31,450 bases of DNA from positions 1-31,450 of IMG/VR virus record IMGVR_UViG_3300046477_000165. One strand, 5' to 3'. Positions 15,595 through 27,672 of the stretch are shown in pieces (position 1 is the stretch's first letter; each line of letters starts with the position of its first letter). The position numbers and the translations under genes were made by a program. The DNA comes from a virus. Under the pieces are notes generated by a model. That model did no database searches. It was not told the DNA's origin and was given only the letters and a program-made list of their open reading frames with translations.

Positions 15595-15759
15595 ATGCAG
15601 GTGAAGTCTTGGGCTGGCGGCGTGGCTCGCATGGGCGCACCCGACAATGCCCGTTCGATCGAGCGCACCATCGGCCCGAAGAACGTGGCACATGTCATTT
15701 GGCGTGGCGGCGTGCGCTACATGGTGCTGGCCAACGGCAAGTTGCGCATCGTTGCGTAG
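15595..15759 (+). CDS. Small basic protein (54 aa)
   Basis: MQVKSWAGGVARMGAPDNARSIERTIGPKNVAHVIWRGGVRYMVLANGKLRIVA. GCGGAGG is six bases upstream of the ATG, a strong ribosome binding site. The protein is basic with short predicted beta strands (HVIWRGGVRYMVL, KLRIVA) and could bind nucleic acid, but no family is recognised. It contains the first CACATGTCAT copy, read there as codons for A-H-V-I. It is the first gene after the repeat-rich region. Confidence 0.6.
   Translation: MQVKSWAGGVARMGAPDNARSIERTIGPKNVAHVIWRGGVRYMVLANGKLRIVA
15689..15698 (+). repeat. CACATGTCAT copy 1
   Basis: Within the 54-aa gene; context GGCACATGTCATTTGG. Confidence 0.6.
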
Positions 15760-15819
15760 CTTAAATCCCACAAACAACAAGCTAACAACTTGTGCGCAAC
15801 TTAGGTACACGGAGGGCAC

Positions 15820-16281
15820 ATGGCCCGCATAGTCAACAAGAACGTCCACAACTTCTTCATCCCCCGCGAGTGGGTGCTCGACATCAAGGCGAAGCTCGGC
15901 GCACCGAACATTAACCCAGCCATCGATGCGGAGTTTGTTTCCCGCGTGGGCAAGGACGTCGCCACGTACATGGCGGACTGGAAGCTGGCGAATCCGCATG
16001 GCTCGAAGTCGGCCGAGTTCAAGCGCCTGCTCATCGAGTGGTTCGATCCCCCTGCTCCACGCAAACACGAGGCAGCCGGGTCGGACTACGAGACGATCAC
16101 CTCCTCGTACCAGCGCACACTCAAGAAGCGTCTGGAGCTCGCAGCCGAGGGTGTTGGTGTTACCATCCACGAGCTCCAACGCCGCTGCGTGATCGAGTTC
16201 CTCGACAGCATGGGTGGCGAGGCAGCAGTACGGATCGGCGCGCACCAGCGCGAGGTAGCGAAGCGCACGAAGGGAGCGTAG
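15820..16281 (+). CDS. Unknown soluble protein (153 aa)
   Basis: Begins MARIVNKNVHNFFIPREWVLDIKAKL, with predicted mixed alpha/beta structure, a central helix FKRLLIEWFDPP, and a C-terminal helical part (YQRTLKKRLELAAEGVGVTIHELQRRCVIEFLDSMGG). The segment GVTIHELQRRCVIEFLDSM resembles a helix-turn-helix or ribbon-helix-helix end, so DNA binding is possible. GGAGG lies five bases upstream of the ATG. It follows a gap holding GCTAACAACTTGTG. Function is not determined. Confidence 0.7.
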   Translation: MARIVNKNVHNFFIPREWVLDIKAKLGAPNINPAIDAEFVSRVGKDVATYMADWKLANPHGSKSAEFKRLLIEWFDPPAPRKHEAAGSDYETITSSYQRTLKKRLELAAEGVGVTIHELQRRCVIEFLDSMGGEAAVRIGAHQREVAKRTKGA

Positions 16282-16285
16282 ACAC

Positions 16286-16483
16286 ATGGACCTGAAGCAA
16301 GCCGCGCTCACCGCCACGCGCCCTGCGTGGGCGACCAGCGACGTATCGCGTTCGATCTACAAGCGCATGCTGGCCGAGGCATACATCGAACTCGAAGAGG
16401 CGAAGCACACCACATCCACGCTGAACGTGGAGTTTTGGGAGACGCGCATCGCCCTGTGTACCGCGCAACTCATGGAGTGTTGA
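16286..16483 (+). CDS. Small helical protein, member of a duplicated family (65 aa)
   Basis: MDLKQAALTATRPAWATS starts the protein, and the C-terminus NVEFWETRIALCTAQLMEC is a helical hairpin. The first ten residues match those of the next ORF (16489), and the C-terminal motif 'WE--I---TAQ--E' matches the protein at 16578 and, more loosely, that at 18308. The gene therefore seems to have duplicated in pieces. It starts four bases after the previous stop. Function unknown. Confidence 0.6.
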   Translation: MDLKQAALTATRPAWATSDVSRSIYKRMLAEAYIELEEAKHTTSTLNVEFWETRIALCTAQLMEC

Positions 16484-16488
16484 AGTAG

Positions 16489-16581
16489 ATGGACCTCAAA
16501 ACCGCCGCGCTCACCGCGGCACTGTGCATGCTGTGCTACCTGGGCGGCGTCATCTCGACGATGGCGCTGATTGCGAGATGA
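16489..16581 (+). CDS. Tiny membrane protein sharing its N-terminus with the upstream gene (30 aa)
   Basis: MDLKTAALTAALCMLCYLGG begins a single hydrophobic helix that continues to the C-terminus. The first residues MDLKxAALTA repeat the start of the 65-aa protein just upstream, at both DNA and protein level. Its stop overlaps the next ATG (16578-16581), supporting translation. It predicts one membrane span; role unknown. Confidence 0.45.
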   Translation: MDLKTAALTAALCMLCYLGGVISTMALIAR

Positions 16582-16769
16582 GCACCACCGATTACGGCCA
16601 CTGGATCAAGCAGCGAAGCCTGGAGATCAGGCGCGACAAACTGCGTGAGCGTCTGAAGCATGCACAAGCCATGCTCCCTATCGCACGCAGGACATCCGAA
16701 GTAGGCGCGTCCGTGGATTATTGGGAAGCAGAGATAGCGTCGATCACCGCCCAGATGCTGGAGCTATAA
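16578..16769 (+). CDS. Small helical protein of the duplicated family (63 aa)
   Basis: Starts at the overlapping ATG, giving MSTTDYGHWIKQRSLEIRRDKLRERLKHAQAML and the C-terminal VDYWEAEIASITAQMLEL. The basic helical body and the 'WE-EI--ITAQM-EL' end parallel the 65-aa protein at 16286. A longer in-frame start upstream would overlap the 30-aa ORF entirely and is less likely. Probably a small helical-hairpin protein; target unknown. Confidence 0.6.
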   Translation: MSTTDYGHWIKQRSLEIRRDKLRERLKHAQAMLPIARRTSEVGASVDYWEAEIASITAQMLEL

Positions 16770-16778
16770 CCCGCGCGA

Positions 16779-16788
16779 CACATGTCAT
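16779..16788 (+). repeat. CACATGTCAT copy 2
   Basis: Intergenic, in the 66-bp gap before the Cys-cluster coiled-coil gene; context GACACATGTCATGCCGC. Confidence 0.6.
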
Positions 16789-16835
16789 GCCGCGCACAAC
16801 ACCCACCTGAAGTAAACCGTAAACGGATAACCAAC

Positions 16836-17318
16836 ATGATCAAGCGTATCTACATCCACGCCGGCCACGACGCCGCGCAATGCAAGTGCACCTTCGCCCA
16901 GCGCATGGTTGGCGATGGCTGCGACGTCTGCAACCCGGAACTGGCCGAGGAGTTGGCTGAGCCCACCGAAGCCGACATGCTCTGCGCCGAGCTCGAAGAC
17001 ACGCAGCGCGTGGCGCACTACCAGCGCGAGACGATCGCCGCCCACCTGAGCACGATCGACAGCCAGCGCAAGATCATCGCCAACCTGTGCGAGCAGCTGA
17101 CCGCCGCGCGCAACGCCGCGTCAATGGCCGAGGAGCAGAAGCGCGACCTGCAAGGCCGCATCCTGGGGTACGACGCGGACATGGCTGGCATGGTGAAGTC
17201 GGCGGCTGCGTGGGATGAGAAGCTCAAAGCCCAAGCCGAGAAGATCGCCAGCCAGCGCGATGTGATCAACCAGCTGAGCGATCGCCTCGTCAAGGTCGAA
17301 CGCGCGCTCCGTTCCTAG
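16836..17318 (+). CDS. Coiled-coil protein with N-terminal Cys cluster (160 aa)
   Basis: The N-terminus has C16-x-C18 and C29-x2-C32 with histidines at 8 and 11, a layout able to bind one zinc ion. From about residue 45 to the end it is a long charged coiled coil (SQRKIIANLCEQLTAARN, LKAQAEKIASQRDVINQLSD). ATG 16836 is preferred because the alternative upstream ATG lies in the CACATGTCAT repeat with no ribosome binding site. A scaffold or nucleic-acid-binding adaptor is plausible. It ends in TAG that overlaps a GTTAGCA motif. No named family recognised. Confidence 0.7.
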   Translation: MIKRIYIHAGHDAAQCKCTFAQRMVGDGCDVCNPELAEELAEPTEADMLCAELEDTQRVAHYQRETIAAHLSTIDSQRKIIANLCEQLTAARNAASMAEEQKRDLQGRILGYDADMAGMVKSAAAWDEKLKAQAEKIASQRDVINQLSDRLVKVERALRS

Positions 17319-17331
17319 TTAGCAAGTTGTG
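17318..17331 (+). promoter_or_regulatory. GTTAGCAAGTTGTG motif between coiled-coil and MGYRSD-type genes
   Basis: GTTAGCAAGTTGTG is shared base for base with the site at 18262-18275. It begins on the last base of the upstream TAG stop and runs into the GAGGAGG ribosome binding site of the next gene. Confidence 0.5.
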
Positions 17332-17342
17332 AGGAGGTTGAT

Positions 17343-17807
17343 ATGGGATACAGAAGCGACGTGGCCTACATGATCCGTGGGCCCAAGGACACGATGCTGG
17401 CCGTGCTCGCGCACTACCGGCTGACCGTGCCGCATGCGGAGCTGGCGCTCGACGAGGTGGTGATCTCCGAAGGCATACATGGCGCGAACGATGAAGCGGA
17501 CCTCACGATTGGGTTGAAGACACACGGCAAGTGGTACGACGATTACGAGGATGTGAAATGCCATGAAAATCTGTGGCGCCTCTTCCTCGAAGCGCAGGAA
17601 GCAGCCGAAGCCGACAGCGACGCGATCCATATTGACGGCCGCTTCATCCGAATCGGAGAGAACACGGACGACATTGAGGTGCGCACATTCGGCAACGACT
17701 CGTGGAACCTGTGGGAGGAGCTCGACGTGAGCGTGAGCCTCAACGTGGACACCGATGCGTTCAATGATGCCCGAGACATCCACAAGGAGGCAGAGCAGAA
17801 TGCCTAA
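17343..17807 (+). CDS. MGYRSD-family phage protein of unknown function (154 aa)
   Basis: The start MGYRSDVAYMIRGPKDTMLAVLAHYRL is typical of a widespread phage hypothetical family that nearly always begins MGYRSDV. Later segments are beta-rich and acidic (HIDGRFIRIGENTDDIEVRTFGND, WNLWEELDVSVSLN). GAGGAGG lies five bases before the ATG, a strong site. Family identity by the N-terminal signature is fairly safe; the family itself has no assigned role known to me. It overlaps the next gene by eight bases. Confidence 0.75.
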   Translation: MGYRSDVAYMIRGPKDTMLAVLAHYRLTVPHAELALDEVVISEGIHGANDEADLTIGLKTHGKWYDDYEDVKCHENLWRLFLEAQEAAEADSDAIHIDGRFIRIGENTDDIEVRTFGNDSWNLWEELDVSVSLNVDTDAFNDARDIHKEAEQNA

Positions 17808-18141
17808 AGTCGACCGCGCAGCCACGTGGATACTGGAACACCTGCGCACCAACGGACCGTCCACGAAGGTAGCGATGCGGGCCGAGGCCCCGGATGACGT
17901 CGCCGCCTCTGTTGGCCCGCGCCTGTCCGCCCTCGCCTCACTGGGCAAGCTGGACACCCGCACCATCGGCGAGAAGCTAGGTAAGCCGGTGCTGGAGTAT
18001 CGCCTAGCCGGGAGCACGCAGCGCACGACGTCCACGTCGTTCCGCTCCCATGAGATCCTCGACGCGTTCCTCGCGGCCGCGCGCCGGCAGCTGGGCGTCG
18101 AGGAGAGTTACCTCGACCGCCTTAAACGGGAGGCTGTATGA
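17800..18141 (+). CDS. Winged-helix-like DNA-binding protein (113 aa)
   Basis: MPKVDRAATWILEHLRTNGP begins a winged-helix pattern: helix 1 (AATWILEHLRT), helix 2 (TKVAMRAE), recognition helix (VAASVGPRLSALASLGKL) and a wing (LDTRTIGEKLGKPVLEYRLA). A C-terminal helix (SHEILDAFLAAARRQLGVEESYLDRL) could dimerise. AAGGAGG precedes ATG 17800. It may be the transcription factor for this early region, possibly acting at one of the repeated motifs; that link is only a guess. Confidence 0.65.
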   Translation: MPKVDRAATWILEHLRTNGPSTKVAMRAEAPDDVAASVGPRLSALASLGKLDTRTIGEKLGKPVLEYRLAGSTQRTTSTSFRSHEILDAFLAAARRQLGVEESYLDRLKREAV

Positions 18142-18266
18142 ATTCACATGTCATGCCGCTGGATGCGCTGTACGCCGCGTTCACCGGATTCTTTCTGGCC
18201 CTGTTTCTCTTCGTGATGTGGGATTTGCACCACATTATGGTCCTCATCGACCTCTGGTTAAGTTAG
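18138..18266 (+). CDS. Small membrane protein (42 aa)
   Basis: The ATG overlaps the stop of the winged-helix gene. MNSHVMPLDALYAAF leads into a hydrophobic span (FTGFFLALFLFVMWDL) and a second shorter hydrophobic end. One membrane helix is likely. The first codons contain a CACATGTCAT copy and the TAG stop lies inside a GTTAGCA motif, so both ends of this gene are made of the recurring motifs. Confidence 0.5.
   Translation: MNSHVMPLDALYAAFTGFFLALFLFVMWDLHHIMVLIDLWLS
18145..18154 (+). repeat. CACATGTCAT copy 3
   Basis: Codons 3-6 of the 42-aa membrane protein; context TTCACATGTCATGCCGC, so nine bases after the core agree with copy 2 up to GCCGC. Confidence 0.6.
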
Positions 18267-18275
18267 CAAGTTGTG
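18262..18275 (+). promoter_or_regulatory. GTTAGCAAGTTGTG motif followed by GTGTGTAT
   Basis: Identical 14-mer to 17318-17331, here running on into GTGTGTATGATG, which resembles a -10 box (TATGAT). The next gene starts at 18308. A promoter is possible but no good -35 box is visible. Confidence 0.45.
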
Positions 18276-18307
18276 TGTATGATGCACACACATTGTGAGG
18301 GGGTCGT

Positions 18308-18475
18308 ATGAACATCGGCACGGTGGAGCACGCTGAATACGTTATCCGTGTGTGGCTTATGCACCTGAAGCGCATCGACGCGAGGCTTAGCTGCGGCTTC
18401 ACCCGAGCGCAATGCGAGGAAGGCATCGCGCTCTGGACCGCCAAGCTACTGGAGGCACGAAGTGCACAAGGATGA
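18308..18475 (+). CDS. Small helical protein (55 aa)
   Basis: MNIGTVEHAEYVIRVWLMHL begins a helical hairpin protein whose C-terminal part (CEEGIALWTAKLLEARSAQG) resembles the ends of the 65-aa and 63-aa proteins near 16286-16769. GAGGGGG lies about five bases before ATG 18308. The resemblance hints at a third, more distant copy of that small family. It overlaps the next gene by 14 bases. Confidence 0.55.
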   Translation: MNIGTVEHAEYVIRVWLMHLKRIDARLSCGFTRAQCEEGIALWTAKLLEARSAQG

Positions 18476-18677
18476 GAAGCTGATGTTGGTCCTATATGGC
18501 GTGGCGGTGCTCGCGCTATGGGTTTCGCTGTTCGTGAAACCGTGGGATGTCGTGTCTACGACCATGTCGGCGCTCGGCGCCATCATCTCCACATGTTGTT
18601 GGATGGCGCTGTACCGCAAGGTCAAACAGAACATCGTCGACAGAGTTATCCGAAGACTTGAACGAGGTGAGCAGTGA
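18462..18677 (+). CDS. Two-span membrane protein (71 aa)
   Basis: Starts at GTG 18462, which has GGAGG six bases upstream. Two hydrophobic segments, LMLVLYGVAVLALWVSLFV and MSALGAIISTCCWMALY, are joined by a short KPWDVVST loop and followed by a basic tail (RKVKQNIVDRVIRRLERGEQ). Size and topology match small holin-like proteins, but no endolysin is nearby and the gene is in the early block, so an early membrane role is equally likely. Stop overlaps the next GTG. Confidence 0.6.
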   Translation: MHKDEKLMLVLYGVAVLALWVSLFVKPWDVVSTTMSALGAIISTCCWMALYRKVKQNIVDRVIRRLERGEQ

Positions 18678-19015
18678 CGTTTCTCAGGCAGCGCACGCTG
18701 ACGCGGCGCCGGGCAGACAAGAAGTTCGAAGCACGATGGGGAGATCCTGTGCGATTCACACCGACGCCGTGGAGCGGCAAAGAGTGGGCGATCTACGACA
18801 GCGAGAAGCGCGGCAACGTAGCGTTCGGCACGAAAGGTTTCTGTATGCAGAAGGCGAGGCATCTGAACGATGAGCATGCACGAGCAGTCTTTGATAGCCC
18901 GTGGGTTTCAGGGGTTAGCACCGAATCACTGGAAGCTGATCACGCTGGACAGCAGGCAGATAAACCTCGGGCTGCCGGGCTACGACCGTGTGCCCTACTG
19001 GGCGGCGCTGCTTAG
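18674..19015 (+). CDS. Small basic protein with a doubtful C-terminal half (113 aa as read)
   Basis: GTG 18674 overlaps the previous stop and has GAGG upstream. The first 75 residues look real (RRRADKKFEARWGDPVRFTP, WSGKEWAIYDSEKRGNVAFG), while the rest (VSTESLEADHAGQQADKPRAAG) uses codons with poor G/C at third positions and lies entirely inside the next gene in another frame. Either the gene truly overlaps by 146 bases, or a frameshift has altered its end. Function unknown. Confidence 0.5.
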   Translation: MTFLRQRTLTRRRADKKFEARWGDPVRFTPTPWSGKEWAIYDSEKRGNVAFGTKGFCMQKARHLNDEHARAVFDSPWVSGVSTESLEADHAGQQADKPRAAGLRPCALLGGAA

Positions 19016-19103
19016 CCAAGCGCACCACATCAACTGCCCGGCTGACCAGATCGAGTACATCGAAGAGCAGCTGGCCATCGTAGTGGCAAGGAGGATGGAG
19101 TGA
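18870..19103 (+). CDS. Small unknown protein (77 aa)
   Basis: MSMHEQSLIARGFQGLAPNHWKLITLDSRQ continues with LGLPGYDRVPYWAALLSQAH and a C-terminal helix (DQIEYIEEQLAIVVARRME). Codon use from about 18930 onward favours this frame over the overlapping one. No strong ribosome binding site precedes the ATG, so start choice is uncertain (18870 or 18876). Its final codons contain AAGGAGG, which serves the next gene's GTG start. Confidence 0.6.
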   Translation: MSMHEQSLIARGFQGLAPNHWKLITLDSRQINLGLPGYDRVPYWAALLSQAHHINCPADQIEYIEEQLAIVVARRME

Positions 19104-19393
19104 GTATGTCCCCATTCGACATTGAGCTCGACGCGACCACGCAGGATATGGTCGAGAACTTCGGCTACGTCGTGGCCGCCATGAAGGAGCGAGGTATCGC
19201 CTTCGATCCGGAGAATGACTTCCAAGCGCTCTGGTATCTGGCGCATGAGGTTCGCAACATGTGGGACAACAGCGGAAGATCGCTCATAACCACGCTCGAC
19301 GAACTGCTCGACCTCAAGCTGGTCAGCGCGAGGCTGGCCGGGTACGACGACCTGATGTGGTGGATCAACGAAGAAGTTTTCGGCAATAAGTAG
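19100..19393 (+). CDS. Unknown acidic helical protein (97 aa)
   Basis: GTG 19100 has AAGGAGG five bases upstream; ATG 19106 is an alternative. The protein is mostly helical and acidic: IELDATTQDMVENFGYVVAAMKERG, NDFQALWYLAHEVRNMWDNSG, ITTLDELLDLKLVSARLAGYDDLMWWINEEVF. No family recognised. Its TAG stop is followed directly by a GTTAGCA motif. It is the last gene before the ATPase, with 76 bp between them. Confidence 0.65.
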   Translation: MSMSPFDIELDATTQDMVENFGYVVAAMKERGIAFDPENDFQALWYLAHEVRNMWDNSGRSLITTLDELLDLKLVSARLAGYDDLMWWINEEVFGNK

Positions 19394-19418
19394 TTAGCAG
19401 ATAACGCAGTACACGTAG

Positions 19419-19428
19419 CACATGTCAT
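19419..19428 (+). repeat. CACATGTCAT copy 4
   Basis: Intergenic, 42 bases before the MoxR-type ATPase ATG; context AGCACATGTCATGCAGC. Confidence 0.6.
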
Positions 19429-19469
19429 GCAGCAAACCACCAACCACTGATTAACTTATAGGATCAGAC

Positions 19470-20456
19470 ATGAAATTCTCCGACATCCACACCTCCATCA
19501 CGGCTCAGTTCAAGACCACCAACCGTATCGCCCCGTTCATCCTCGGCAAGCCGGGCGGCGGCAAGACGGAACTGGCCCGCAAGGTGGGCCGCGACCTCGG
19601 CTTCGACCAGGTGATCGAGTTCAACGCGTCACTGCGCGACCCGGTCGACCTGCTGGGCACGCCGCGCAACGCCGGCGAGTTCACCGAGTGGGTGCCGCCG
19701 AAGGAACTGTACCGCCTGCGTGAAGGCCGCAACCTCCTCATCATGGAGGAACTCAGCGACGCCACGGTGCCTATGCAGAATGGAATCTGCGGATTAATTC
19801 ACGATAGAAAGCTGAACGACCTGCAGCTGTCGCCGGACACCTACATCATCGCGACGGGCAACCGCACCGAGGACAAGTCGGGCGCGAACCGCATCACCTC
19901 GAAGCTGGCCAACCGCATGCGCCGCTTCGACTTCGACGAGAACCTCGACGACTGGTGCGACTGGGCGCTCGGCGCGGGCATCGACGTCATGCTCATCCAG
20001 TTCCTGCGCTTCAAGCCGAACCTGCTCTCGGACTTCGACCCGAACCGCTTCTGCAACCCGACGCCGCGCGCATGGGAGCGCGTCAACATGATCCCGGAAG
20101 ATCTCGAGCCGGCGCTCTTCATGGACAACGCAGCCGGTGAAGTCGGCGCGGGCGCGGCAGCCGAGTACACGGCGTTCCGCAAGATCGCAAGTTCGCTGCC
20201 TTCTATCGACAGTGTGCTCATGAATCCGGCTACGGCTGAAGTGCCGACCGACGTGGCTGTCCTCTTCGCGATGGCTGGTGCGATCTCGATGCGCACGTCG
20301 AAGGATAATATCGATCGCGTTTCAGAGTATATGAATCGCATGCCAATCGACTTCAGCGTCCTCATGATGAACGACATTGTTAAGCTCCACCCCGAGGTCA
20401 AGACGACGAAAGCGTTCGTGTCGTGGGCAGTAAAGAACGCGAGCGTACTCGTCTGA
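19470..20456 (+). CDS. MoxR-type AAA+ ATPase
   Basis: A 328-aa AAA_5/MoxR-like ATPase. Walker A is GKPGGGKT (26-33); Walker B is LLIMEEL (89-95), with Met-Glu-Glu in place of the usual D-E; sensor 1 is ATGN (N131); Arg-finger candidates lie in NRMRRFDF (149-155). Such ATPases remodel or load cofactors into partner complexes and usually work with a VWA protein. Here that partner is likely the 380-aa protein at 23398, and the helical 303-aa protein at 21277 may be a third component. ATAGGAT lies before the ATG. The gap upstream (19394-19469) holds one CACATGTCAT copy and one GTTAGCA motif. Confidence 0.88.
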   Translation: MKFSDIHTSITAQFKTTNRIAPFILGKPGGGKTELARKVGRDLGFDQVIEFNASLRDPVDLLGTPRNAGEFTEWVPPKELYRLREGRNLLIMEELSDATVPMQNGICGLIHDRKLNDLQLSPDTYIIATGNRTEDKSGANRITSKLANRMRRFDFDENLDDWCDWALGAGIDVMLIQFLRFKPNLLSDFDPNRFCNPTPRAWERVNMIPEDLEPALFMDNAAGEVGAGAAAEYTAFRKIASSLPSIDSVLMNPATAEVPTDVAVLFAMAGAISMRTSKDNIDRVSEYMNRMPIDFSVLMMNDIVKLHPEVKTTKAFVSWAVKNASVLV

Positions 20457-20457
20457 T

Positions 20458-20769
20458 ATGGCGCGCGGCAAGTGGGCTACAAATTTCGGCTTCACCGGCA
20501 AGGCGATGTTCACCGTCGACACCGGGCTGCAGGCGGACGGTACGCCCACTGGCTGGTATGTCCGCACCGATGGGAAGATCGACGGTATCTGGCGGGTGTA
20601 CTACCCGCCGGACTACGCCTACTTTTCAGAGCGTCCATCTTGGGTGCTCGCCAGGTTCGCACCAGGTGGAGAGTGGTGGTGCGCCGTGGTCAACAAGACC
20701 GAGCAGCGCGTGGGCCCCTTCCCTACCAAGGCATCCGCGCTCGCAGCACGGAGGATGTTATCAGCATGA
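20458..20769 (+). CDS. Small Trp/Tyr-rich protein (103 aa), first of a tandem series
   Basis: Begins MARGKWATNFGFTGKAMFTVDTG, with many aromatic residues (WYVRTDGKIDGIWRVYYPPDYAYF, GGEWWCAVVNKTEQRVGPF) suggesting a beta-sheet, then a C-terminal helix PTKASALAARRMLSA. The start is one base after the ATPase stop. The final CGG AGG ATG codons provide the ribosome binding site for the next gene. The same strand-rich body plus 'a-ARRM' end recurs in six later genes. Function unknown. Confidence 0.65.
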   Translation: MARGKWATNFGFTGKAMFTVDTGLQADGTPTGWYVRTDGKIDGIWRVYYPPDYAYFSERPSWVLARFAPGGEWWCAVVNKTEQRVGPFPTKASALAARRMLSA

Positions 20770-21002
20770 AGATCATAACCAAGCGATTGGAGACGGACGA
20801 CAACTACGCCTCGATCCGGTACGAGAACGGCCACATCACATGGTTCGAGGAGAGCCGGATGTACCACTCTCAGCACGAGAAGACCGGAGACGGCCCAGAC
20901 ATCTACAAGGTGTATGGCGAGCCCGGCTGGCGCGTCGAGGGCGACCACGACACGAAGTACCCGACGCGGCTTACCGCTCTGATCGCAGCGAGGATGGGAT
21001 GA
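20766..21002 (+). CDS. Small tandem protein (78 aa), paralogue of the next gene
   Basis: MKIITKRLETDDNYASIRYENGHITWFEES, ending YPTRLTALIAARMG. It aligns with the downstream 81-aa protein over its start (MKII-K--E-DD-Y-SI-Y) and end (YP-R--AL-A), so the two are duplicates. Both ends overlap neighbours by four bases. A small beta-plus-helix fold is likely. No function can be assigned. Confidence 0.65.
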   Translation: MKIITKRLETDDNYASIRYENGHITWFEESRMYHSQHEKTGDGPDIYKVYGEPGWRVEGDHDTKYPTRLTALIAARMG

Positions 21003-21244
21003 AGATCATCGACAAGGAGTGGGAGAACGACGACTTCTACACTTCGATCTACTACGGGCCGAAACATCTAAGCACGTCGGCGCGCATGTGGGATGAGGGA
21101 GATGGCTGGCGCTTCTCCATGAGTGGCGTTGGTACGCATGTGTTTCGCGAACGCGGCGGTGGATGGTACTGCGACCGCGGCCCAGACGATAACCGCTATC
21201 CATGCCGCGCCGCTGCGCTAGTCGCACTGAAGCTCTCGCAGTAA
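20999..21244 (+). CDS. Small tandem protein (81 aa), paralogue of the previous gene
   Basis: MKIIDKEWENDDFYTSIYYGPKHLSTSARM continues with aromatic, Gly-rich strands (DGWRFSMSG, GGGWYCDRG) and ends YPCRAAALVALKLSQ. The start overlaps the previous stop. A 32-bp gap containing ACTAACTAACTTGAGG follows. It is the second half of a recent-looking duplication within the ATPase operon. Confidence 0.65.
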   Translation: MKIIDKEWENDDFYTSIYYGPKHLSTSARMWDEGDGWRFSMSGVGTHVFRERGGGWYCDRGPDDNRYPCRAAALVALKLSQ

Positions 21245-21276
21245 GCACCACAACACTAACTAACTTGAGGCACGCA

Positions 21277-22188
21277 ATGGACATGACTCTCCCCCCGAAC
21301 ATTGACATCAAGGCCACGCAGTTGAATGAGAAGGCGATGCTCGTCAAGCTGACGATGCGCCGCGCTCACATGTCATCGCGCGATCAGGCTGCCGAGGAGA
21401 TCGTGCAGAACCAGCTGAACGACGCGTCGCTGGTGGTCAACCGCAAGCTGTTCCGGGACAAAGCGAACCCGGTGAACCGGATTCTGACGGCCGCGAGCGA
21501 GGTGTACACAGCGCACAAGAAGATGACGCTGCCGTACATGGACGCCGGCCCGCGCATCCTGGCAAACGGGATGTACATGGAGTACACGAAGGCGATGAAG
21601 GAGCGCATCGCGCACCTCGAAGGGATGATCGAGCAGACGCTGGCCAGCTGGGACCAGCACGTGGCGGCCGACATCTCGTTTCGCAGCCGGTCATCCAGTG
21701 GCGGGAGGGCAACAGTCGAGGACTACCCCACCGCTGAGCAATTCAGGGAGCGCGTGGGATTCGACCTGCGCTTCTCCCCCCTGCCGGACGAGAGCCACTT
21801 CCTGTTCGACCTGTCGGAGGAAGACAAGGCGGGCTTCGCTTCGTCGATGAAGGAGATCGCCGCCGGCGCGCGCCGCGATTGCATCATGCGGATGTTAGCA
21901 CCTGTTGACCACTTGATTAGTAAGTTGCGCTTGCCCATTGGCGAAACTGGGAGTATCTTTCGTGACTCCGCGATCACCAACGTGGTCGAAGGGTGCGAGA
22001 TCGCCCGCAAACTCAACATCGACGACGACCCCCAGATCACGGCGGTGATCGGAGAGTTGAACCGCGCGATCGCCAAGATCAACGATGCGAAGGATGCAGT
22101 GCGCGAGTCGCAGCCCACGCGCGAGGCCGCCGCCAAGAAGCTGGCGGAACTGCAGGCGAAGCTGGCGCCGTTTATGGGGATGGCATGA
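21277..22188 (+). CDS. Helical protein, possible DUF3150-like partner of the ATPase (303 aa)
   Basis: ATG 21277 has GAGG six bases upstream and is preferred to a start inside the previous gene. The protein is mainly helical. Recognisable stretches are FRDKANPVNRILTAASEVYTAHKKMTLPYMDAGPRILANGMYMEYTKAMKERIAHLE, then YPTAEQFRERVGFDLRFSPLP, and a coiled-coil C-terminus (ELNRAIAKINDAKDAVRES). The 'Gp-l-p---y--y--am' and 'yps---fr----f---f-p-p' pattern resembles DUF3150-type proteins encoded between MoxR ATPases and VWA proteins. That match is from memory. It contains one CACATGTCAT and one GTTAGCA in its coding sequence. Confidence 0.7.
   Translation: MDMTLPPNIDIKATQLNEKAMLVKLTMRRAHMSSRDQAAEEIVQNQLNDASLVVNRKLFRDKANPVNRILTAASEVYTAHKKMTLPYMDAGPRILANGMYMEYTKAMKERIAHLEGMIEQTLASWDQHVAADISFRSRSSSGGRATVEDYPTAEQFRERVGFDLRFSPLPDESHFLFDLSEEDKAGFASSMKEIAAGARRDCIMRMLAPVDHLISKLRLPIGETGSIFRDSAITNVVEGCEIARKLNIDDDPQITAVIGELNRAIAKINDAKDAVRESQPTREAAAKKLAELQAKLAPFMGMA
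21367..21376 (+). repeat. CACATGTCAT copy 5
   Basis: Near the 5' end of the 303-aa helical gene; context CTCACATGTCATCGCG. Confidence 0.6.
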
Positions 22189-22457
22189 AACGATTGAGCA
22201 GCAAGGCACGCAGGGACCGTAGTCGGCAGAACTTCTTCGAGTACCTCACCGTGGAGGTTGTGCTGCTCCGCATGGCGGGGTGTCCGACCGAAGAGTTGAA
22301 GGCGTTCGAGAACCCCAAACACCGCGACCGTGAGGTACTCAAGTCGAAGCTGAACCGACTGAAAGCCTACGTGGTTGACGGGAAGTATGTGTATTCCAAC
22401 AGGGTCTTCAACTACGGCATGCAGCCCTCGCAGCGGACGCATCCAATCGGAGGATGA
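22185..22457 (+). CDS. Small basic protein (90 aa)
   Basis: Start overlaps the previous stop (22185-22188). MKRLSSKARRDRSRQNFFEYLTVEVVLLRMAGC leads into a basic helical body (ENPKHRDREVLKSKLNRLKAYVV) and a short C-terminal tail. Strong positive charge suggests nucleic-acid or protein binding. No family recognised. The end GGAGGATGA supplies the ribosome binding site for the next ATG. Confidence 0.6.
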   Translation: MKRLSSKARRDRSRQNFFEYLTVEVVLLRMAGCPTEELKAFENPKHRDREVLKSKLNRLKAYVVDGKYVYSNRVFNYGMQPSQRTHPIGG

Positions 22458-22458
22458 A

Positions 22459-22701
22459 ATGACAACGAAGCGTGAAGAGAACTGGATCGCGATCCAGCCG
22501 GGGTATGACTGCCACATCCTCCTGCCGGCCTCGAAGGCCACGGAGTTGCTGGCCCACATGCTCCAGCTGCAGCACAAGTACGTCGACGGCAGCTACATGT
22601 GGACGGTGGTAGGCGATCGGGAGCATACCAAAATCCAGATCGTCGAAGCCGACCTCATCACCGCCGCGCGCGTGGCTGCGAAGTTCGACGATAAGAAGTA
22701 A
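22459..22701 (+). CDS. Small unknown protein (80 aa)
   Basis: ATG 22459 has GGAGG five bases upstream. MTTKREENWIAIQPGYDCHILLPASKATELLAHMLQLQHKYVDG is followed by strands WTVVGDREHTKIQIVEAD and a helical ITAARVAAKFDDKK. This is a small alpha/beta fold with no visible catalytic site. A 31-bp gap follows before the HNH gene. Confidence 0.65.
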   Translation: MTTKREENWIAIQPGYDCHILLPASKATELLAHMLQLQHKYVDGSYMWTVVGDREHTKIQIVEADLITAARVAAKFDDKK

Positions 22702-22732
22702 TATGTAGCCCAAACGATCCGGGACTACAAGA

Positions 22733-23377
22733 ATGAAGACGTGTTCAGCATGCGGGGAAGCGAAGGATCTGGCCGAGTTCTATAAGCAGGGACCTTGCAA
22801 GGTGTGTAAGCGAGCCATGACGGCGGCTTGGCGCGAGGCTAATCCGGAGCGCGCCAAGCAAGCCACGCGCGAGTGGCAGAAGGCAAACCCTAAGCGCCGA
22901 GCGGAGTACGCGTTGAAGGCTAGGCTCGCCGATCCTGAGAAGAAGCGAGCACAGAGCCGCAGATGGTATGCAGAGAACCGTGAGCAGAAGCTCGAGCAGA
23001 ACAAAGCGTGGGCTCAAGCCAACCCCGATAAGCGTCGCGCGCATATACGTTCTGGATACTGGAGAGATCCAGAAAAGTGGCGTGCATACAGCGCCGCCAA
23101 GATCAAGGCGAACATGCCCTACTACGTTGAGGCGGCTGCGAAACGTAGAGCAGCGCAGCGTGGTGCAACACCAGTGTGGGCGGACCGCAAAGCGATCGCG
23201 GCGATCTACCGGGAAGCACGGCGCAGAAGGGAAGCAGGCGAGGATGTACACGTAGATCACATCGTGCCGCTGCAGAGCGACATTGTCTGTGGCCTCCACG
23301 TTGAATTCAACCTGCGCATCATCGGCGCGTTCGATAACCATAGCAAGAAGAACCGGCATTGGCCGGACATGCCATAA
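22733..23377 (+). CDS. HNH endonuclease with N-terminal zinc finger
   Basis: A 214-aa protein. CSAC (4-7) and CKVC (22-25) form a zinc-finger pair at the N-terminus. Residues 30-125 are a basic helical region with repeating 'W---NPEkAk' units. The C-terminus has DHIVPL (175-180), then FNLRIIGAFDNHSKKNRHW, the HNH signature with its second Asn and Lys residues. It may be a free-standing homing nuclease or act in genome processing. It separates the helical protein gene from the VWA gene and looks like an insertion into that module. Confidence 0.85.
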   Translation: MKTCSACGEAKDLAEFYKQGPCKVCKRAMTAAWREANPERAKQATREWQKANPKRRAEYALKARLADPEKKRAQSRRWYAENREQKLEQNKAWAQANPDKRRAHIRSGYWRDPEKWRAYSAAKIKANMPYYVEAAAKRRAAQRGATPVWADRKAIAAIYREARRRREAGEDVHVDHIVPLQSDIVCGLHVEFNLRIIGAFDNHSKKNRHWPDMP

Positions 23378-23397
23378 CTTACTCATCGAGAACCAAC

Positions 23398-24540
23398 ATG
23401 AAAACCGTTTCAAAGCTGGACAAAGCTAAAGCAGCCATCGTTTTGGACCACCCATTTTGGGCCTCCATCTTGTTGCGTAGGCCGATGCAGCCGCGTAAGG
23501 ATATCCCTATCCTCGCGATCGACAAGCGCGGAACCATCTACTACAACCCGGACAACATCGAGAAGTTCACGGTCCCGCAGTTGGTCTGGGGCCTCTGCCA
23601 TGAATGTGGACATTATCTCGGTCAGCACGCCAACCGGAAGCAGCACCGGGACCACAAGAAGTGGAACATCGCATGCGATGGGTGGCTAAACGACATCCTC
23701 ACGTCGGCCGGCGTCGGCCAGCCCATCGAGGGCACGGTGAACATGCCGGGCTCGAAGGACAAGACGTGCGAGGCGATCTACGACGAGCTCCCCGACCAGC
23801 CCGAAGGTGGCGAAGGTAGCGGAGAGGGCGAAGGTAGCGGGGATAGCCAAGGCGGCATGGGCGACGACGTCCTCGATGAAGGCGCACCCGTCAGCGAGAG
23901 CGAAGCCAAGCAGATGGAGGCCCAGGCCAAGATCGAAGTGGCTGAAGCGGCGCAGGCAGCGAAGATGCGTGGCAAGCTGCCCGCCGCGCTAGCTGAGTTC
24001 GTCGCCGATTTTCTCGACAGCAAGACGCCCTGGTTCGACATCCTCGAGCGGCACATGACGGCGCTCACCGCCACGCACATGTCATGGCAACGTCCGAACC
24101 GCCGCTACGCGCTGAGCGACCTGTATCTGCCGAGCATGGCCAAGGCCCCGACGATGGGCGAGTTGTGCTGCGTGGTCGACGTCTCTGGTTCGATCTCACA
24201 GACCGAGCTCGCCTACTACAACGGCCACCTCACGCGCATCGTCGAGCAGTGCAATCCCGAGAAGGTCCACGTGCTCTACGTCGACACGAAGTGCCAGAAG
24301 CACGTCGAGTTCGAGCAGGGCGAGCCGGTCGGGCTGGAGTTCTACTCCGGCGGCGGCACGCACATGCCGGCCGCGTTCGACTTCATGGCCGAGCACGGCA
24401 TCGACCCAGCGGTGACCGTGTTCCTCACGGACGGATTTACTGGTTTTGATACGGACCCCGGCATGCCGGTGGTGTGGTGCATCTCATCCAACGTGGTGGC
24501 CCCTTATGGCGAAACCGTCCACTTTGAACTCGAGCACTGA
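23398..24540 (+). CDS. VWA protein with HExxH metallopeptidase-like N-terminus (DUF2201-type)
   Basis: A 380-aa protein. HECGH (68-72) within LVWGLCHECGHYLGQH is an HExxH zinc motif, as in the DUF2201 N-terminal putative metallopeptidase. Residues 133-160 are a Gly/Glu/Ser linker. The VWA domain carries the metal-ion site D261-V-S-G-S265 (VVDVSGSIS), T321 (GGGTHMP) and D345 (LTDGF). MoxR-type ATPases commonly pair with such VWA proteins, so it probably acts with the ATPase at 19470. ATG 23398 is preferred to 23359, which would overlap the HNH gene. Whether the HExxH site is active is unknown. The domain linker and VWA core look intact. Confidence 0.85.
   Translation: MKTVSKLDKAKAAIVLDHPFWASILLRRPMQPRKDIPILAIDKRGTIYYNPDNIEKFTVPQLVWGLCHECGHYLGQHANRKQHRDHKKWNIACDGWLNDILTSAGVGQPIEGTVNMPGSKDKTCEAIYDELPDQPEGGEGSGEGEGSGDSQGGMGDDVLDEGAPVSESEAKQMEAQAKIEVAEAAQAAKMRGKLPAALAEFVADFLDSKTPWFDILERHMTALTATHMSWQRPNRRYALSDLYLPSMAKAPTMGELCCVVDVSGSISQTELAYYNGHLTRIVEQCNPEKVHVLYVDTKCQKHVEFEQGEPVGLEFYSGGGTHMPAAFDFMAEHGIDPAVTVFLTDGFTGFDTDPGMPVVWCISSNVVAPYGETVHFELEH
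24076..24085 (+). repeat. CACATGTCAT copy 6
   Basis: Inside the VWA gene, before its VWA domain; context CGCACATGTCATGGC. Confidence 0.6.
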
Positions 24541-24739
24541 GTGGGTGTGGTCACCCGACGCAGAAAAGGTGATCTACTACCTATTCCCACGCACAGACCG
24601 GCCGCCAGTGGAGTACATCAAGCGCAACAGATTCAATCCGTCAACATGGAAGTGGTACTGGGCGCGCGAAGGGCTCTGGTTCGACTCCCTCGAAGAGGCC
24701 AAGGCCACCGTGTTGGCGATCGTGAGGATGGGAGCATGA
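24506..24739 (+). CDS. Small tandem Trp-rich protein (77 aa)
   Basis: Overlaps the end of the VWA gene by 35 bases in another frame; the start is uncertain. The body EWVWSPDAEKVIYYLFPRTDRPP and WKWYWAREGLWFDSLEEAKATVLAIVRMGA shows the aromatic strands and 'LEEAKA--LAI-RM' end shared with the next gene. It is the first of four consecutive tiny genes after the VWA gene. Function unknown. Confidence 0.6.
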   Translation: MAKPSTLNSSTEWVWSPDAEKVIYYLFPRTDRPPVEYIKRNRFNPSTWKWYWAREGLWFDSLEEAKATVLAIVRMGA

Positions 24740-24945
24740 GCGAATGGCATTGGGATCGGCCCGCGATGGATAGATGGCATCGACTCTATGACGACCACGA
24801 CGTCATACAGGCAGCAGTATATCCAGCGTCGGGATACTGGGCTGCCAAGGTGAGGGAGTCGAGTAGCCTCAAGATCTACGAGCAGCAGTTCATTGACTTG
24901 GAGGAGGCGAAGGCATGGTGCCTAGCGATAGCGAGAATGGGCTGA
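24736..24945 (+). CDS. Small tandem Trp-rich protein (69 aa)
   Basis: MSEWHWDRPAMDRWHRLYDD, then VIQAAVYPASGYWAAKV and the C-terminal DLEEAKAWCLAIARMG. Its end matches the previous protein almost residue for residue. Start overlaps the previous stop, and its ribosome binding site lies in the previous gene's AGG ATG codons. Role unknown. Confidence 0.65.
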   Translation: MSEWHWDRPAMDRWHRLYDDHDVIQAAVYPASGYWAAKVRESSSLKIYEQQFIDLEEAKAWCLAIARMG

Positions 24946-25163
24946 CCTGGCGCGCGTGCGGCTTCACCATCGACGGCGCGACGGACCAGTGGGCGCTTGA
25001 TCTCGGCAACGGCGAGGATGGCGCAGTGGTCTGGGAGGTTCAGGACCTGGACCGCCAGTTCTACTACGTCCTCCACACTAGCGGGATCTCAGAGCCCCAC
25101 CCCACGCTCGAGGCCGCGCAGGAAGCCGCCCTCGCAGCCTGGGTAGCGGAGAGGATGAAATGA
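24915..25163 (+). CDS. Small tandem protein (82 aa)
   Basis: ATG 24915 has GAGGAGG eight bases upstream, inside the previous gene; the two overlap by 31 bases. The body (TWRACGFTIDGATDQWALDLGNG, AVVWEVQDLDRQFYYVLHTSG) is strand-rich, and the end TLEAAQEAALAAWVAERMK follows the family pattern. The longer overlap than usual suggests a fusion of coding and translation signals. Function unknown. Confidence 0.65.
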   Translation: MVPSDSENGLTWRACGFTIDGATDQWALDLGNGEDGAVVWEVQDLDRQFYYVLHTSGISEPHPTLEAAQEAALAAWVAERMK

Positions 25164-25393
25164 TCGAGTGGCATAGGGATATCAGCCGCGATGGATGGTT
25201 CGGCGCGGTGCCAGGTCACAACGCGGCGGTCATCATCTGGCGCGAGGTGGCGCACCCACACCGCATCACCATGATCAACATCTGGGACGGTGGTGGGCGC
25301 TGGATTGGAGACACAGTCGAAGAAGCCAAGCGGGCCGCAGTCGCACAACTTGTCTTATGGAGGATGGAACATGGGCATCAAAAGAAGCCCTGA
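25160..25393 (+). CDS. Small tandem protein (77 aa)
   Basis: MIEWHRDISRDGWFGAVPGHNAAVIIWREV, then ITMINIWDGGGRWIGD and TVEEAKRAAVAQLVLWRMEHG. Start overlaps the previous stop; the RM codons again carry GGAGGATG used by the next gene. The Trp-rich strands plus EEAK helix are the shared layout. Its C-terminus has extra residues (HGHQKKP) beyond the family end. Confidence 0.65.
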   Translation: MIEWHRDISRDGWFGAVPGHNAAVIIWREVAHPHRITMINIWDGGGRWIGDTVEEAKRAAVAQLVLWRMEHGHQKKP

Positions 25394-25577
25394 AGTCGGC
25401 GTGCAGGTGGTCGAAGTCACGCAGCAGGCCGGGCGGCCGAAGTACCGCGTGAACATCACGCTCGACCGCATGCAGTGGAAGTCGGTCGAAGTCGACGAAG
25501 CGTTGTCTGTTGGCGACGCCATCGCGTTAGCAGTTGTCGAATTGAAGTTAGCAGGTGTATCCTTGCAACCCAACTGA
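25371..25577 (+). CDS. Small unknown protein (68 aa)
   Basis: ATG 25371 has GGAGG seven bases upstream, within the previous gene (23-base overlap). MGIKRSPEVGVQVVEVTQQA, then KYRVNITLDRMQWKSVEVDEALSVGDAIALAVVELKLAGVSL. It is a beta hairpin followed by a helix. Two GTTAGCA motifs lie in its 3' end. It differs in sequence from the four preceding tandem genes. Function unknown. Confidence 0.6.
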   Translation: MGIKRSPEVGVQVVEVTQQAGRPKYRVNITLDRMQWKSVEVDEALSVGDAIALAVVELKLAGVSLQPN

Positions 25578-25585
25578 GGCACAGC

Positions 25586-26272
25586 ATGTTTACTTACTCA
25601 CAGCTTGAAGAAATCTGGAACACGCGTCGCAAGGGCAACCACGACAAACCCTTGGCGGGCGCCACGCGCCTGCGCAAGGAAGGCGACGACATGGTGGTCA
25701 AGTTCTACTTCACCGACATCGTGCGCATCACCCCGGACAACATCGTCACGGTCAATACCGGCGGCTACTCGGACAGCCCGGCCACCCGCGAGCGGATCAT
25801 GACCTACGGCGGGGTGAGCATCTGGAGCGACAGCCGGACGAATGGCCTCGAGGATCGTGTCCGCTGCAGCGGCGACCTGCCCTTCTCTCGAGAGCTCAAG
25901 TTCCGCAACGGTGTGTGTCTCAACCCCGAGATCTGCGTCGACCGGATCACCACGCTCAAGCGCAGCGCGATCACCGAAGTCACGAAGCAGCTGCGCCCCC
26001 TGCGCACGTTGTGCATGTCACTCGCCCGCATCAACGCATTCGATAAGTCATTCACTCGGGCTAACTGGGCGTCTATCGATCTCGAGGACCCGCAGTTCGT
26101 CGACGCCCAGATGGTGTATGGGCACGGCCAGTGGCAAGGCTCGATCGGTAAGACGGCGCAGGAGTACGTCGAGATCGGCCTGAAGGCTCTGCGCGAGCAC
26201 CTCTACGAGTACATGGATGCTCACAACACCGAGGAGATCCGCTATGGGCAAGATCAGCGCATCGCTGCTTGA
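25586..26272 (+). CDS. Unknown protein (228 aa)
   Basis: ATG 25586 has GAGG six bases upstream. MFTYSQLEEIWNTRRKGNHDKPLAGATRLRKEGDDMVVKFYFTDIVRITPDNIVTVNTGGY starts the protein; later it has RVRCSGDLPFSRELKFRNGVCLNPE and helical segments (TEVTKQLRPLRTLCMSLARINAF, YVEIGLKALREHLYEYMDAHN). The strand-rich N-terminal half and helical C-terminal half look like one intact protein. It resembles generic phage hypotheticals, with no assigned function. Confidence 0.7.
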   Translation: MFTYSQLEEIWNTRRKGNHDKPLAGATRLRKEGDDMVVKFYFTDIVRITPDNIVTVNTGGYSDSPATRERIMTYGGVSIWSDSRTNGLEDRVRCSGDLPFSRELKFRNGVCLNPEICVDRITTLKRSAITEVTKQLRPLRTLCMSLARINAFDKSFTRANWASIDLEDPQFVDAQMVYGHGQWQGSIGKTAQEYVEIGLKALREHLYEYMDAHNTEEIRYGQDQRIAA

Positions 26273-26915
26273 TAAGCACCGGGAGATCAACGTAGATCAC
26301 GACGACTGGTATGAATCGATCCTCGACGACTTCGTGGAGGACATGGCGGAGAAAGGCATCCGGGTTGACCGCGACAAGATCTACTTCGGATGCGGCTACT
26401 GCCAGAGCGACGACTGCAACTTCGCCGCGGTAGTGTCAGACGAGAAGAAGTTCATGGAGGTCCACGGCCTGCACGAACGCTACCCGGCGGTCTACCACTT
26501 CACGAAGTTCGATGCGTCGGCGATCAGTATCCACGTCAGCCTGCGTCACCACGGTGGCAGCAGCACCTCGATGTCGACCAGCATCGACCTCGATTTCTCG
26601 CCGGACTACGACAGCGAGGATCTGCGCGACGCGATCGACGCGGCGATGTACGACCAGTGCGAAGACCCCGAAGAGAACGGCGAGCAACTGATCGCCTGCG
26701 AGGTGGATGTGAAAGAGATCATGGCGGGCTACGCCTATGACCTCCACCAGAAGCTCTATTCCGAGCTCGAGTACCAGACGAGCGACGAGGCTGTAACCGA
26801 CACGCTCGAGTGCAATGGGATCTACGACGAAGAGGAAGACGATGACACCGATGAAGACGACGATGCCGAGCCTGCCGATCACGAACCCGAAGTTCAGGTA
26901 CACGCCGTCGCATAG
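26244..26915 (+). CDS. Phage protein of a widespread unknown family with acidic tail (223 aa)
   Basis: ATG 26244 has GAGGAG seven bases upstream. The first part, SLLDKHREINVDHDDWYESILDDFVEDM followed by GIRVDRDKIYFGCGYCQSDDCNFAA, matches a family found in many phages with the pattern 'khr-inv-----y----dF--dm---G---d-i-fsGf-sQgdga-f'. The C-terminal 40 residues are strongly acidic (EEEDDDTDEDDDAEPADHEP), a charge typical of DNA-mimic or protein-binding tails. Biochemical role unknown. The acidic tail region overlaps a 43-aa ORF in another frame. Confidence 0.75.
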   Translation: MGKISASLLDKHREINVDHDDWYESILDDFVEDMAEKGIRVDRDKIYFGCGYCQSDDCNFAAVVSDEKKFMEVHGLHERYPAVYHFTKFDASAISIHVSLRHHGGSSTSMSTSIDLDFSPDYDSEDLRDAIDAAMYDQCEDPEENGEQLIACEVDVKEIMAGYAYDLHQKLYSELEYQTSDEAVTDTLECNGIYDEEEDDDTDEDDDAEPADHEPEVQVHAVA

Positions 26916-26973
26916 CACCGACATCCGCGAGACCTTCAAGAAGCACGACCGCCTCAACAACCGCAGCAAATAA
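26842..26973 (+). CDS. Small basic protein overlapping the acidic-tail gene (43 aa)
   Basis: MTPMKTTMPSLPITNPKFRY begins a 43-aa ORF that ends TPSHSTDIRETFKKHDRLNNRSK. The pattern 'n-kF-YtPs--TDir-tF-k' resembles a set of tiny phage proteins I have seen with this motif; no function is known to me. GAGG lies six bases before the ATG. It overlaps the previous gene's acidic tail by 74 bases in a different frame, which may explain the odd composition of that tail. Confidence 0.55.
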   Translation: MTPMKTTMPSLPITNPKFRYTPSHSTDIRETFKKHDRLNNRSK

Positions 26974-27001
26974 CTCACCAACCAACAAGGAACTTACTGA
27001 C

Positions 27002-27337
27002 ATGAACGTTCAAGAAGTTGCAGCAGCCAAGGCCCTGATGATCCTGAAAGCCGCCGGCGCCCGGTTCCACATCAAGATGTCCGATGGCATCGAGTATGGC
27101 GAGCCGATCGTAGAAGGCAAGCCGCGCAAGAAGGTCGGGCCGAGCATCCTGCACCACTATCAGGAGCCGATCGAGAGGATGGAGGTGGGCGATGTGGTCC
27201 AACTCGCCTACCCCGCTGATATAGACCGCGTGCGATTCAAGACGAACGCGCAGTCCTACGCCCGTAACAAATTCGGCCCCGACTCGTGCGTCGTGGGCAA
27301 GACCGACACTCATGTGGAGATTCTCCGTGTCCAATGA
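27002..27337 (+). CDS. Unknown protein (111 aa)
   Basis: MNVQEVAAAKALMILKAAGARFHIKMSDGIEYGEPIVEGKPRKKVGPSILHHYQEPIERM, then a strand-rich VVQLAYPADIDRVRFKTNAQSYARNKFGPDSCVVGKTDTHVEILRVQ. The last part reads as a small alpha/beta domain with a possible DNA-binding character. A modest AAGGAAC site lies upstream, after ACCAACCAACAAGG. Function unknown. Confidence 0.65.
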   Translation: MNVQEVAAAKALMILKAAGARFHIKMSDGIEYGEPIVEGKPRKKVGPSILHHYQEPIERMEVGDVVQLAYPADIDRVRFKTNAQSYARNKFGPDSCVVGKTDTHVEILRVQ

Positions 27338-27515
27338 AGAAACGAAACGTCTCGCGCGCGTCGAGTCGCGCCTTTGCCAACTGATGCTCCACATGGGGCT
27401 TGATCCGAATGAGAGAGTCTACGATGCGCCCTTCGAAAGCGGGTCCCCTCAACATCCCGCAGACGGTCACCCGTATGCACCGCGCCATGGCGCACCGGGA
27501 TGCCGTCGAGCCTGA
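27327..27515 (+). CDS. Small helical protein with overrunning tail (62 aa)
   Basis: GTG 27327 has GGAG about seven bases upstream; ATG 27312 is an alternative. MSNEETKRLARVESRLCQLMLHMGLDPNERVY looks real (a charged helix), but the end DGHPYAPRHGAPGCRRA lies in the next gene's frame-shifted sequence and looks less natural. Either it overlaps the next gene by 92 bases or its true end has been lost. Function unknown. Confidence 0.45.
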   Translation: MSNEETKRLARVESRLCQLMLHMGLDPNERVYDAPFESGSPQHPADGHPYAPRHGAPGCRRA

Positions 27516-27672
27516 GAGCGAGGCACATGTCATGCTCCAGGCGGCGATCGACACCATCCGCTCGGTGCTGATCATCTACCTCGGGCACGGCGTGGAGCCG
27601 CGTATCCAGTCGCGCCACATGGAAGGCGTCGAGCACTTCAATAAGGTGCTCACGTCCTTGGACATCAACTAG
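27424..27672 (+). CDS. Small helical protein (82 aa)
   Basis: MRPSKAGPLNIPQTVTRMHRAMAHRDAVEP is followed by a helical core, EAHVMLQAAIDTIRSVLIIYLGHGVEPRIQ, and FNKVLTSLDIN. GAGAG lies upstream of ATG 27424; ATG 27409 is an alternative. It contains a CACATGTCAT copy, read as codons for A-H-V-M. No family recognised. A hairpin follows its stop. Confidence 0.6.
   Translation: MRPSKAGPLNIPQTVTRMHRAMAHRDAVEPESEAHVMLQAAIDTIRSVLIIYLGHGVEPRIQSRHMEGVEHFNKVLTSLDIN
27524..27533 (+). repeat. CACATGTCAT copy 7
   Basis: Inside the 82-aa helical gene; context GGCACATGTCATGCTCC. Confidence 0.6.

Follow-up and report, generated by a model that had tools for sequence, protein, structure and literature searches.

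Seven one-strand copies of a ten-base word in a phage of the PolA/DUF2201 family, best read as a variant of LUZ24-like localized nick sites

The ten-base word CACATGTCAT occurs seven times in the IMG/VR virus record IMGVR_UViG_3300046477_000165, each time on the plus strand. The window analysed here is the whole of that record (31,450 bases); it is a fragment, half of a podovirus-like phage genome of about 62 kb, which is the genome size of its close relatives. The word is a real, selected one-strand signal. It quite probably serves as the target site of a strand-specific nicking activity, which would leave nicks in the mature genome. The sites are best read as a variant of the localized nick sites of LUZ24-like phages in a large, otherwise distinct phage family. 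Localized DNA nicks were absent from the readings listed in the initial annotation of this DNA, which named a primase or replication-strand signal, a transcript-processing or antitermination site and binding sites for a phage regulator; they fit best.

Occurrence and conservation of the sites

No copy of the word is found on the minus strand of the window. Dinucleotide-preserving shuffles of the window give a mean of 0.08 copies and a maximum of 1; in a one-strand k-mer scan, the word is the most over-represented 10-mer of the window (log10 E -8.9). Allowing up to one mismatch, a count proposed in the initial annotation, still gives exactly 7 copies, while about 1.8 would be expected by chance; since no copies are added, the site is all or nothing. 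The seven positions, the single strand, the rarity by chance and the following bases (G in five copies, GC in four) are all as first annotated. Across 13 sites from different places in the window and its close relatives, in which the ten bases are identical by site selection, the flanks are unconserved apart from a mild bias to G at the 11th base and to C at the 15th. Repeats of CGAAGGTAG in the window were rejected as a similar signal; they occur on both strands, belong partly to one local repeat and are inconsistently placed.

Several of the coding copies encode the short peptides A/T-H-V-I/M or H-M-S, as they would if the word were the product of chance or of protein conservation. Synonymous-codon shuffling of 19 chosen window genes, which contain three sense copies, gives a mean of 0.33 copies and reaches three in 2/2000 runs. 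Chance and codon conservation are refuted by the shuffles, by the conservation of intergenic copies and by the strand bias in the wider family (171:0), and their probability is negligible. The initial annotation was right that protein conservation does not account for the copies.

The close relatives are IMG/VR records G001 to G004 (G1 to G4), of which G001 is a 15 kb fragment. They contain 5, 10, 7 and 8 copies respectively, every one oriented like the polymerase gene and none reversed; as a control, the word read backwards occurs zero times in the same records. One-mismatch copies are absent from the window and G2, while G3 has three on the plus and one on the minus strand and G4 has two and one. 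Between the window and G2 (about 80% DNA identity), 6/6 alignable sites are identical, compared with 21% of all aligned 10-mers; two of the six alignments have the site as their starting point, so that 6/6 is a flattering figure. Sites missing from relatives with otherwise conserved genes, the outcome named by the initial annotation as telling against its reading, are thus not what G2 displays.

Lineage-specific sites, such as site 1 of the window (Table 1), sit in alignable DNA. A site in the polymerase gene of G1 and G2 is replaced elsewhere by CCGCCCTGCT, while a site in G3 and G4 corresponds to AGCTCGTGAT in G1 and G2. Gained sites differ by 5-7 clustered substitutions within ten alignable bases; this many differences in otherwise alignable DNA points to selection for the site itself.

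Motif drift and genome strand in wider relatives

About 160 further loci were gathered from IMG/VR via searches based on the polymerase and the DUF2201 protein. Motifs were discovered with an unbiased one-strand k-mer scan, which recovers the known motifs of phages tf and LUZ24 as top matches. The dominant motif across the wider family is CACCTATCA(C); several relatives carry CACCTATCA at the position corresponding to site 6 of the window. A tally over 63 loci centred on DUF2201, which include near-duplicates, gives 171 plus-strand copies of CACCTATCA and 0 on the minus strand. Other clades have CACCACTCA, CACCTGTCA, CCGCTATCAT (G5 and G6) or GCGCACTCA (Rhizobium phage RHph_TM3_14A). A literature search for CACCTATCA returned chance matches only.

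Copies largely agree inside one genome and differ between clades. Such concerted drift is expected of sites that track a sequence-specific trans-acting factor. The MoxR/DUF2201 pair was rejected as this factor, as the motif is missing from many phages that have the pair. The first rightward early gene of the window (14393-14971) has a phrog_1448 match and relatives in LUZ24 (gp2) and tf (tf_02). It was rejected as a factor too: LUZ24 and tf share it, but it was not found in G2 despite the 10 sites there. Two other repeats were observed among the relatives. G005 and G006 (G5 and G6; L010 and L011) contain repeated operator-like palindromes, TTGTTCC(GCG or GAG)GAACAA, besides their one-strand word, and G013 (L025), a relative found via its terminase, has a short-word array, with 12 copies of CTTGTTCACTT on one strand of a 15.6 kb stretch.

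The initial annotation placed the sites in the rightward block only. This holds for the window and its closest relatives; in wider relatives the early half is where the motif is concentrated, and some copies, on the same genome strand, also occur in the late block. In the leftward late block of complete relatives, 14 copies lie on that strand (2 in G018, 3 in G024, 1 in G022, 4 in G020, 2 in G017 and 2 in RHph) and 2 on the opposite strand (one each in G014 and G019), a split with a two-sided binomial probability of about 0.004. These numbers are a manual count over relatives with clear transcription blocks; a scripted count of 18/20 included less certain copies. G5 and G6 have one further late-block copy each, with block calls that are less sure. 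Late-block copies are antisense to the late genes, so the motif is a DNA-strand feature and not an mRNA signal.

This bears on two of the alternatives. An RNA-level signal in the early transcript, acting in processing, antitermination or translational control, would suit the window, where every copy is sense-oriented in the early block; given the antisense late-block copies of relatives, it is very improbable. Sites for a phage transcription regulator are unlikely as well. In mycobacteriophage L5, stoperators are asymmetric and transcription-oriented, and lie mainly in short intergenic gaps; a comparable repressor would block elongation along the early block. Like stoperators, the sites are asymmetric and oriented, with many copies spread over the phage genome; their density is also higher towards the start of the early block, and their drift fits a repressor and its operators. 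Unlike stoperators, they follow the genome strand rather than the direction of transcription, as the late-block copies of relatives demonstrate, and many lie deep within genes. No immunity repressor was recognised in general protein scans, in which most proteins are of unknown function. What stands of the earlier readings is that the sites are functional and strand-specific, with a replication-strand signal near the mark; processing or antitermination and transcription-oriented binding are disfavoured by the late-block split.

A one-strand replication signal, such as a primase or primosome loading site or a polar fork barrier, would be consistent with the genome-strand specificity and the kilobase spacing. 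All of these phages have a family A polymerase, and many have a DUF927 protein and a SNF2 helicase. Known phage primases, however, recognise sites of only about 3-5 bases, and G026 and G027 share the replication genes yet lack any one-strand motif. In addition, the replication proteins of LUZ24, tf and Zobellviridae differ, yet their motifs align. A replication signal is accordingly given a low probability.

Comparison with known nick sites and a candidate nickase

In phage tf, 14 nicks have been mapped, all on the top strand and within TACT/RTGMC; 12/14 lie in the rightward early block, the other 2/14 belong to the late block and share that strand, and relatives of tf have TACTATGAC at similar positions (PMC3517423). 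The LUZ24-like phage P1-14Or01 has read pile-ups at GTACTATGAC (PMC3634792). In Rembedalsseter, strand-specific coverage drops occur at 13 WACTRTGAC sites, and 60 related phages carry the motif (PMC11780129). The sites described here share several properties with these: they are asymmetric words of 9-10 bases, present in about 8-14 copies on one strand with almost no near-misses, denser in the early half and mostly in coding sequence, and the motif varies between relatives.

The motifs can also be aligned in register: GTACT/ATGACG in LUZ24, CTACT/GTGACG in tf, CACCT/ATCACG in most of the PolA/DUF2201 family and CACAT/GTCATG in the window. The Zobellviridae motif AATACTATCAT (TACTATCAT, on one strand) is intermediate between the LUZ24-type and PolA/DUF2201-family words. 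By a rough reckoning, a match as good as the one between the LUZ24 and CACCTATCACG words would be expected by chance in a few per cent of comparisons; taken alone, the alignment is therefore no more than suggestive. If the nicking interpretation holds, single-strand interruptions would lie at the sites, in the strand reading CACATGTCAT; from the alignment with tf, LUZ24 and Rembedalsseter, the cut would fall between CACAT and GTCAT.

Other phage nicks are likewise strand-specific at a sequence motif in virion DNA, with motifs unrelated to CACATGTCAT. The phiKMV-like motif is CGACxxxxxCCTA/CTCCGG, on the non-coding strand; that of T5 is R/GCGCRGG, and T5 nicking needs sciA and sciB (PMC3517423). 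Pseudomonas phage Rollin (L046; e.g. 27472, 31220, 40791) has a weak one-strand word, (T)CTCTCCGGT, which resembles phiKMV CCTA/CTCCGG and runs opposite to the early genes. Three Grimontviridae phages, SE131 (L279-L283), Vp_R1 (L284-L289) and GAP52 (L270-L273), have TACTRTGAC (11:1, 10:0) or TACGGTGAC on one strand; they lie outside the 61 phages reported with the nick motif.

Neither PMC3517423 nor PMC11780129 names a gene for a nickase of the tf/LUZ24 type. The leading candidate for the enzyme would be an HNH-like protein, phrog_4590, which is encoded just beyond the window in relatives. A comparison of motif-bearing and motif-less genomes found this protein of 79-123 amino acids in 14/14 complete motif-bearing genomes, plus tf and LUZ24; it was not found in G026, G027, KPP25, R18, RHphN3 or Rollin (the last three read in part). 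In G3 and G4 its gene is found downstream of the polymerase gene, at a distance of about 2.3 kb; the corresponding place would be just past the end of the window.

The candidate matches phrog_4590 (E 5e-16) alongside the LUZ24 and tf proteins, with PHROG HNH families as secondary matches. An HNH-like core is visible in the alignment; Pfam HNH is below cut-off (best 0.0058), and HNH_3 matches one member at 7.5e-05. The AlphaFold model is modest (predicted local distance difference test score, pLDDT, 71.6), and its PDB fold matches are mostly HNH proteins, with E >0.05. The best of these, weak at E 0.08, is 4h9d (Gmet_0936), an HNH nicking endonuclease reported to bind zinc via cysteines (PMC3765158); unlike Gmet_0936, the candidate core has none of these cysteines. 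In tf (L037:16129-16416) and LUZ24 (L047:15622-15933), the HNH-like open reading frame (ORF) overlaps the annotated tf_29 and gp26, which are described as membrane proteins. The coordinates of tf_29 and gp26 imply a different frame, and their annotation may hide the HNH-like ORF.

A prediction was fixed before further genomes were read: phages chosen for the HNH-like protein should have a one-strand site. Such a motif was found in 6/10 test phages (SE131, Vp_R1, GAP52, 1.208.B, 1.293.O and 275E43-1); the LUZ24-like control Lyrsu01 has its motif 16 to 0 between strands. Of the G4 proteins, the HNH-like one alone has a blastp match in Zobellviridae phages. Two HNH clades pair with TGA and TCA motifs respectively; this is a single split and hence one event. 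The cognate words proposed for phrog_4590 proteins would be TACTATGAC, TACTATCAT, CACCTATCAC and CACATGTCAT. That phrog_4590 is the nickase of the localized interruptions, co-evolving with its sites across the otherwise unrelated LUZ24-like, Grimontviridae, Zobellviridae and PolA/DUF2201 phages, is a tentative proposal that falls somewhat short of probable.

Two other predictors were rejected. The anchor gene confounds locus-level association of genes with the motif. The amino acid preceding the conserved His (D, A or N) predicts the motif at clade level only, N being found in two phages with different motifs. As a motif test, 20 kb loci anchored on the HNH-like gene are underpowered, and some LUZ24-like controls were also missed.

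A number of points weigh against nicking at these sites and against the candidate enzyme. The analysis covers assembled sequence only, and no nick was observed. The likeness of CACATGTCAT to TACTRTGAC is partial, with a fixed-base match of about TRTSA. Several bases differ from TACTRTGMC or WACTRTGAC despite the register, so CACATGTCAT is not classed by motif as a LUZ24/tf-type member; in contrast to the tf-type phages, the PolA/DUF2201 family (about 53-62 kb) is otherwise unrelated and known here from sequence alone. The HNH-like gene lies outside the window, and its presence in the window's genome is deduced from relatives. Of the six positive test phages, which belong to Zobellviridae or Grimontviridae, 1.293.O and 275E43-1 have motifs that are weak alone and were recognised through their match to 1.208.B. 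No dispersed motif could be detected in the four other test phages with the HNH-like protein (SU10, LAh_8, CW02 and VP41s3) or in phiM6 (first 50 kb), which also has it, and a gapped k-mer scan of SU10, LAh_8, CW02 and phiM6 found none either. Six further genomes with the protein, taken from the HNH-anchored loci and read whole or nearly so, contain only clustered repeats or nothing. On polymerase-anchored loci, the association between protein and motif is non-significant (p = 0.11, at a looser threshold).

Genome setting and implications

Genes in the left part of the window form a leftward late block (portal, terminase and tail proteins). An early block, read rightward, fills the right part; its products include a MoxR-like ATPase, a DUF2201 protein, an endonuclease VII-like protein and a family A DNA polymerase (PolA). 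At the DNA level, the early block has no matching phage in the isolate collection, and about 35% of the polymerase is shared with the nearest named phages. In G3 and G4, the polymerase gene (L008:10001-12739 and L009:10001-12739) has 913 codons, with an in-frame, intein-like insertion of about 289 amino acids that begins CFAANTRVLT, includes TPDHEILTEHGW and ends near VIAHNC; this insertion is absent from the window and G2.

Table 1. Sites and context genes in the window
Feature	Coordinates	Strand	Remarks
Site 1, CACATGTCAT	15689..15698	+	lineage-specific; CGCCCGTGGT in aligned G3/G4
Site 2, CACATGTCAT	16779..16788	+	between ORFs; kept in G2 and G4; one mismatch in G3 (CACATGTCAC)
Site 3, CACATGTCAT	18145..18154	+	alignable and intact in G2, G3 and G4
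Site 4, CACATGTCAT	19419..19428	+	intergenic, about 40 bases 5' of the MoxR-like ATPase gene; intact in G2, G3 and G4
Site 5, CACATGTCAT	21367..21376	+	within ORF 21202-22188; intact in G1-G4
Site 6, CACATGTCAT	24076..24085	+	within the DUF2201 gene; intact in G1-G4
Site 7, CACATGTCAT	27524..27533	+	within a short plus-strand ORF; intact in G1-G4
MoxR-like AAA ATPase	19470..20456	+	PHROG and Pfam matches; neighbours sites (context)
DUF2201 metallopeptidase/VWA-like protein	23359..24540	+	PHROG and Pfam matches; holds site 6 (context)
Family A DNA polymerase	28537..30411	+	PHROG and Pfam matches; anchor for orienting relatives

Some phage genomes have been known for about 50 years to carry programmed nicks; to our knowledge, there is no agreed function for these. 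If the reading proposed here is true, nicked genomes would reach well past the 61 Pseudomonas phages listed in 2025, and nick sites would be readable from sequence alone. With a concrete candidate gene, it would also become possible to test directly which enzyme makes the nicks and what they are for.

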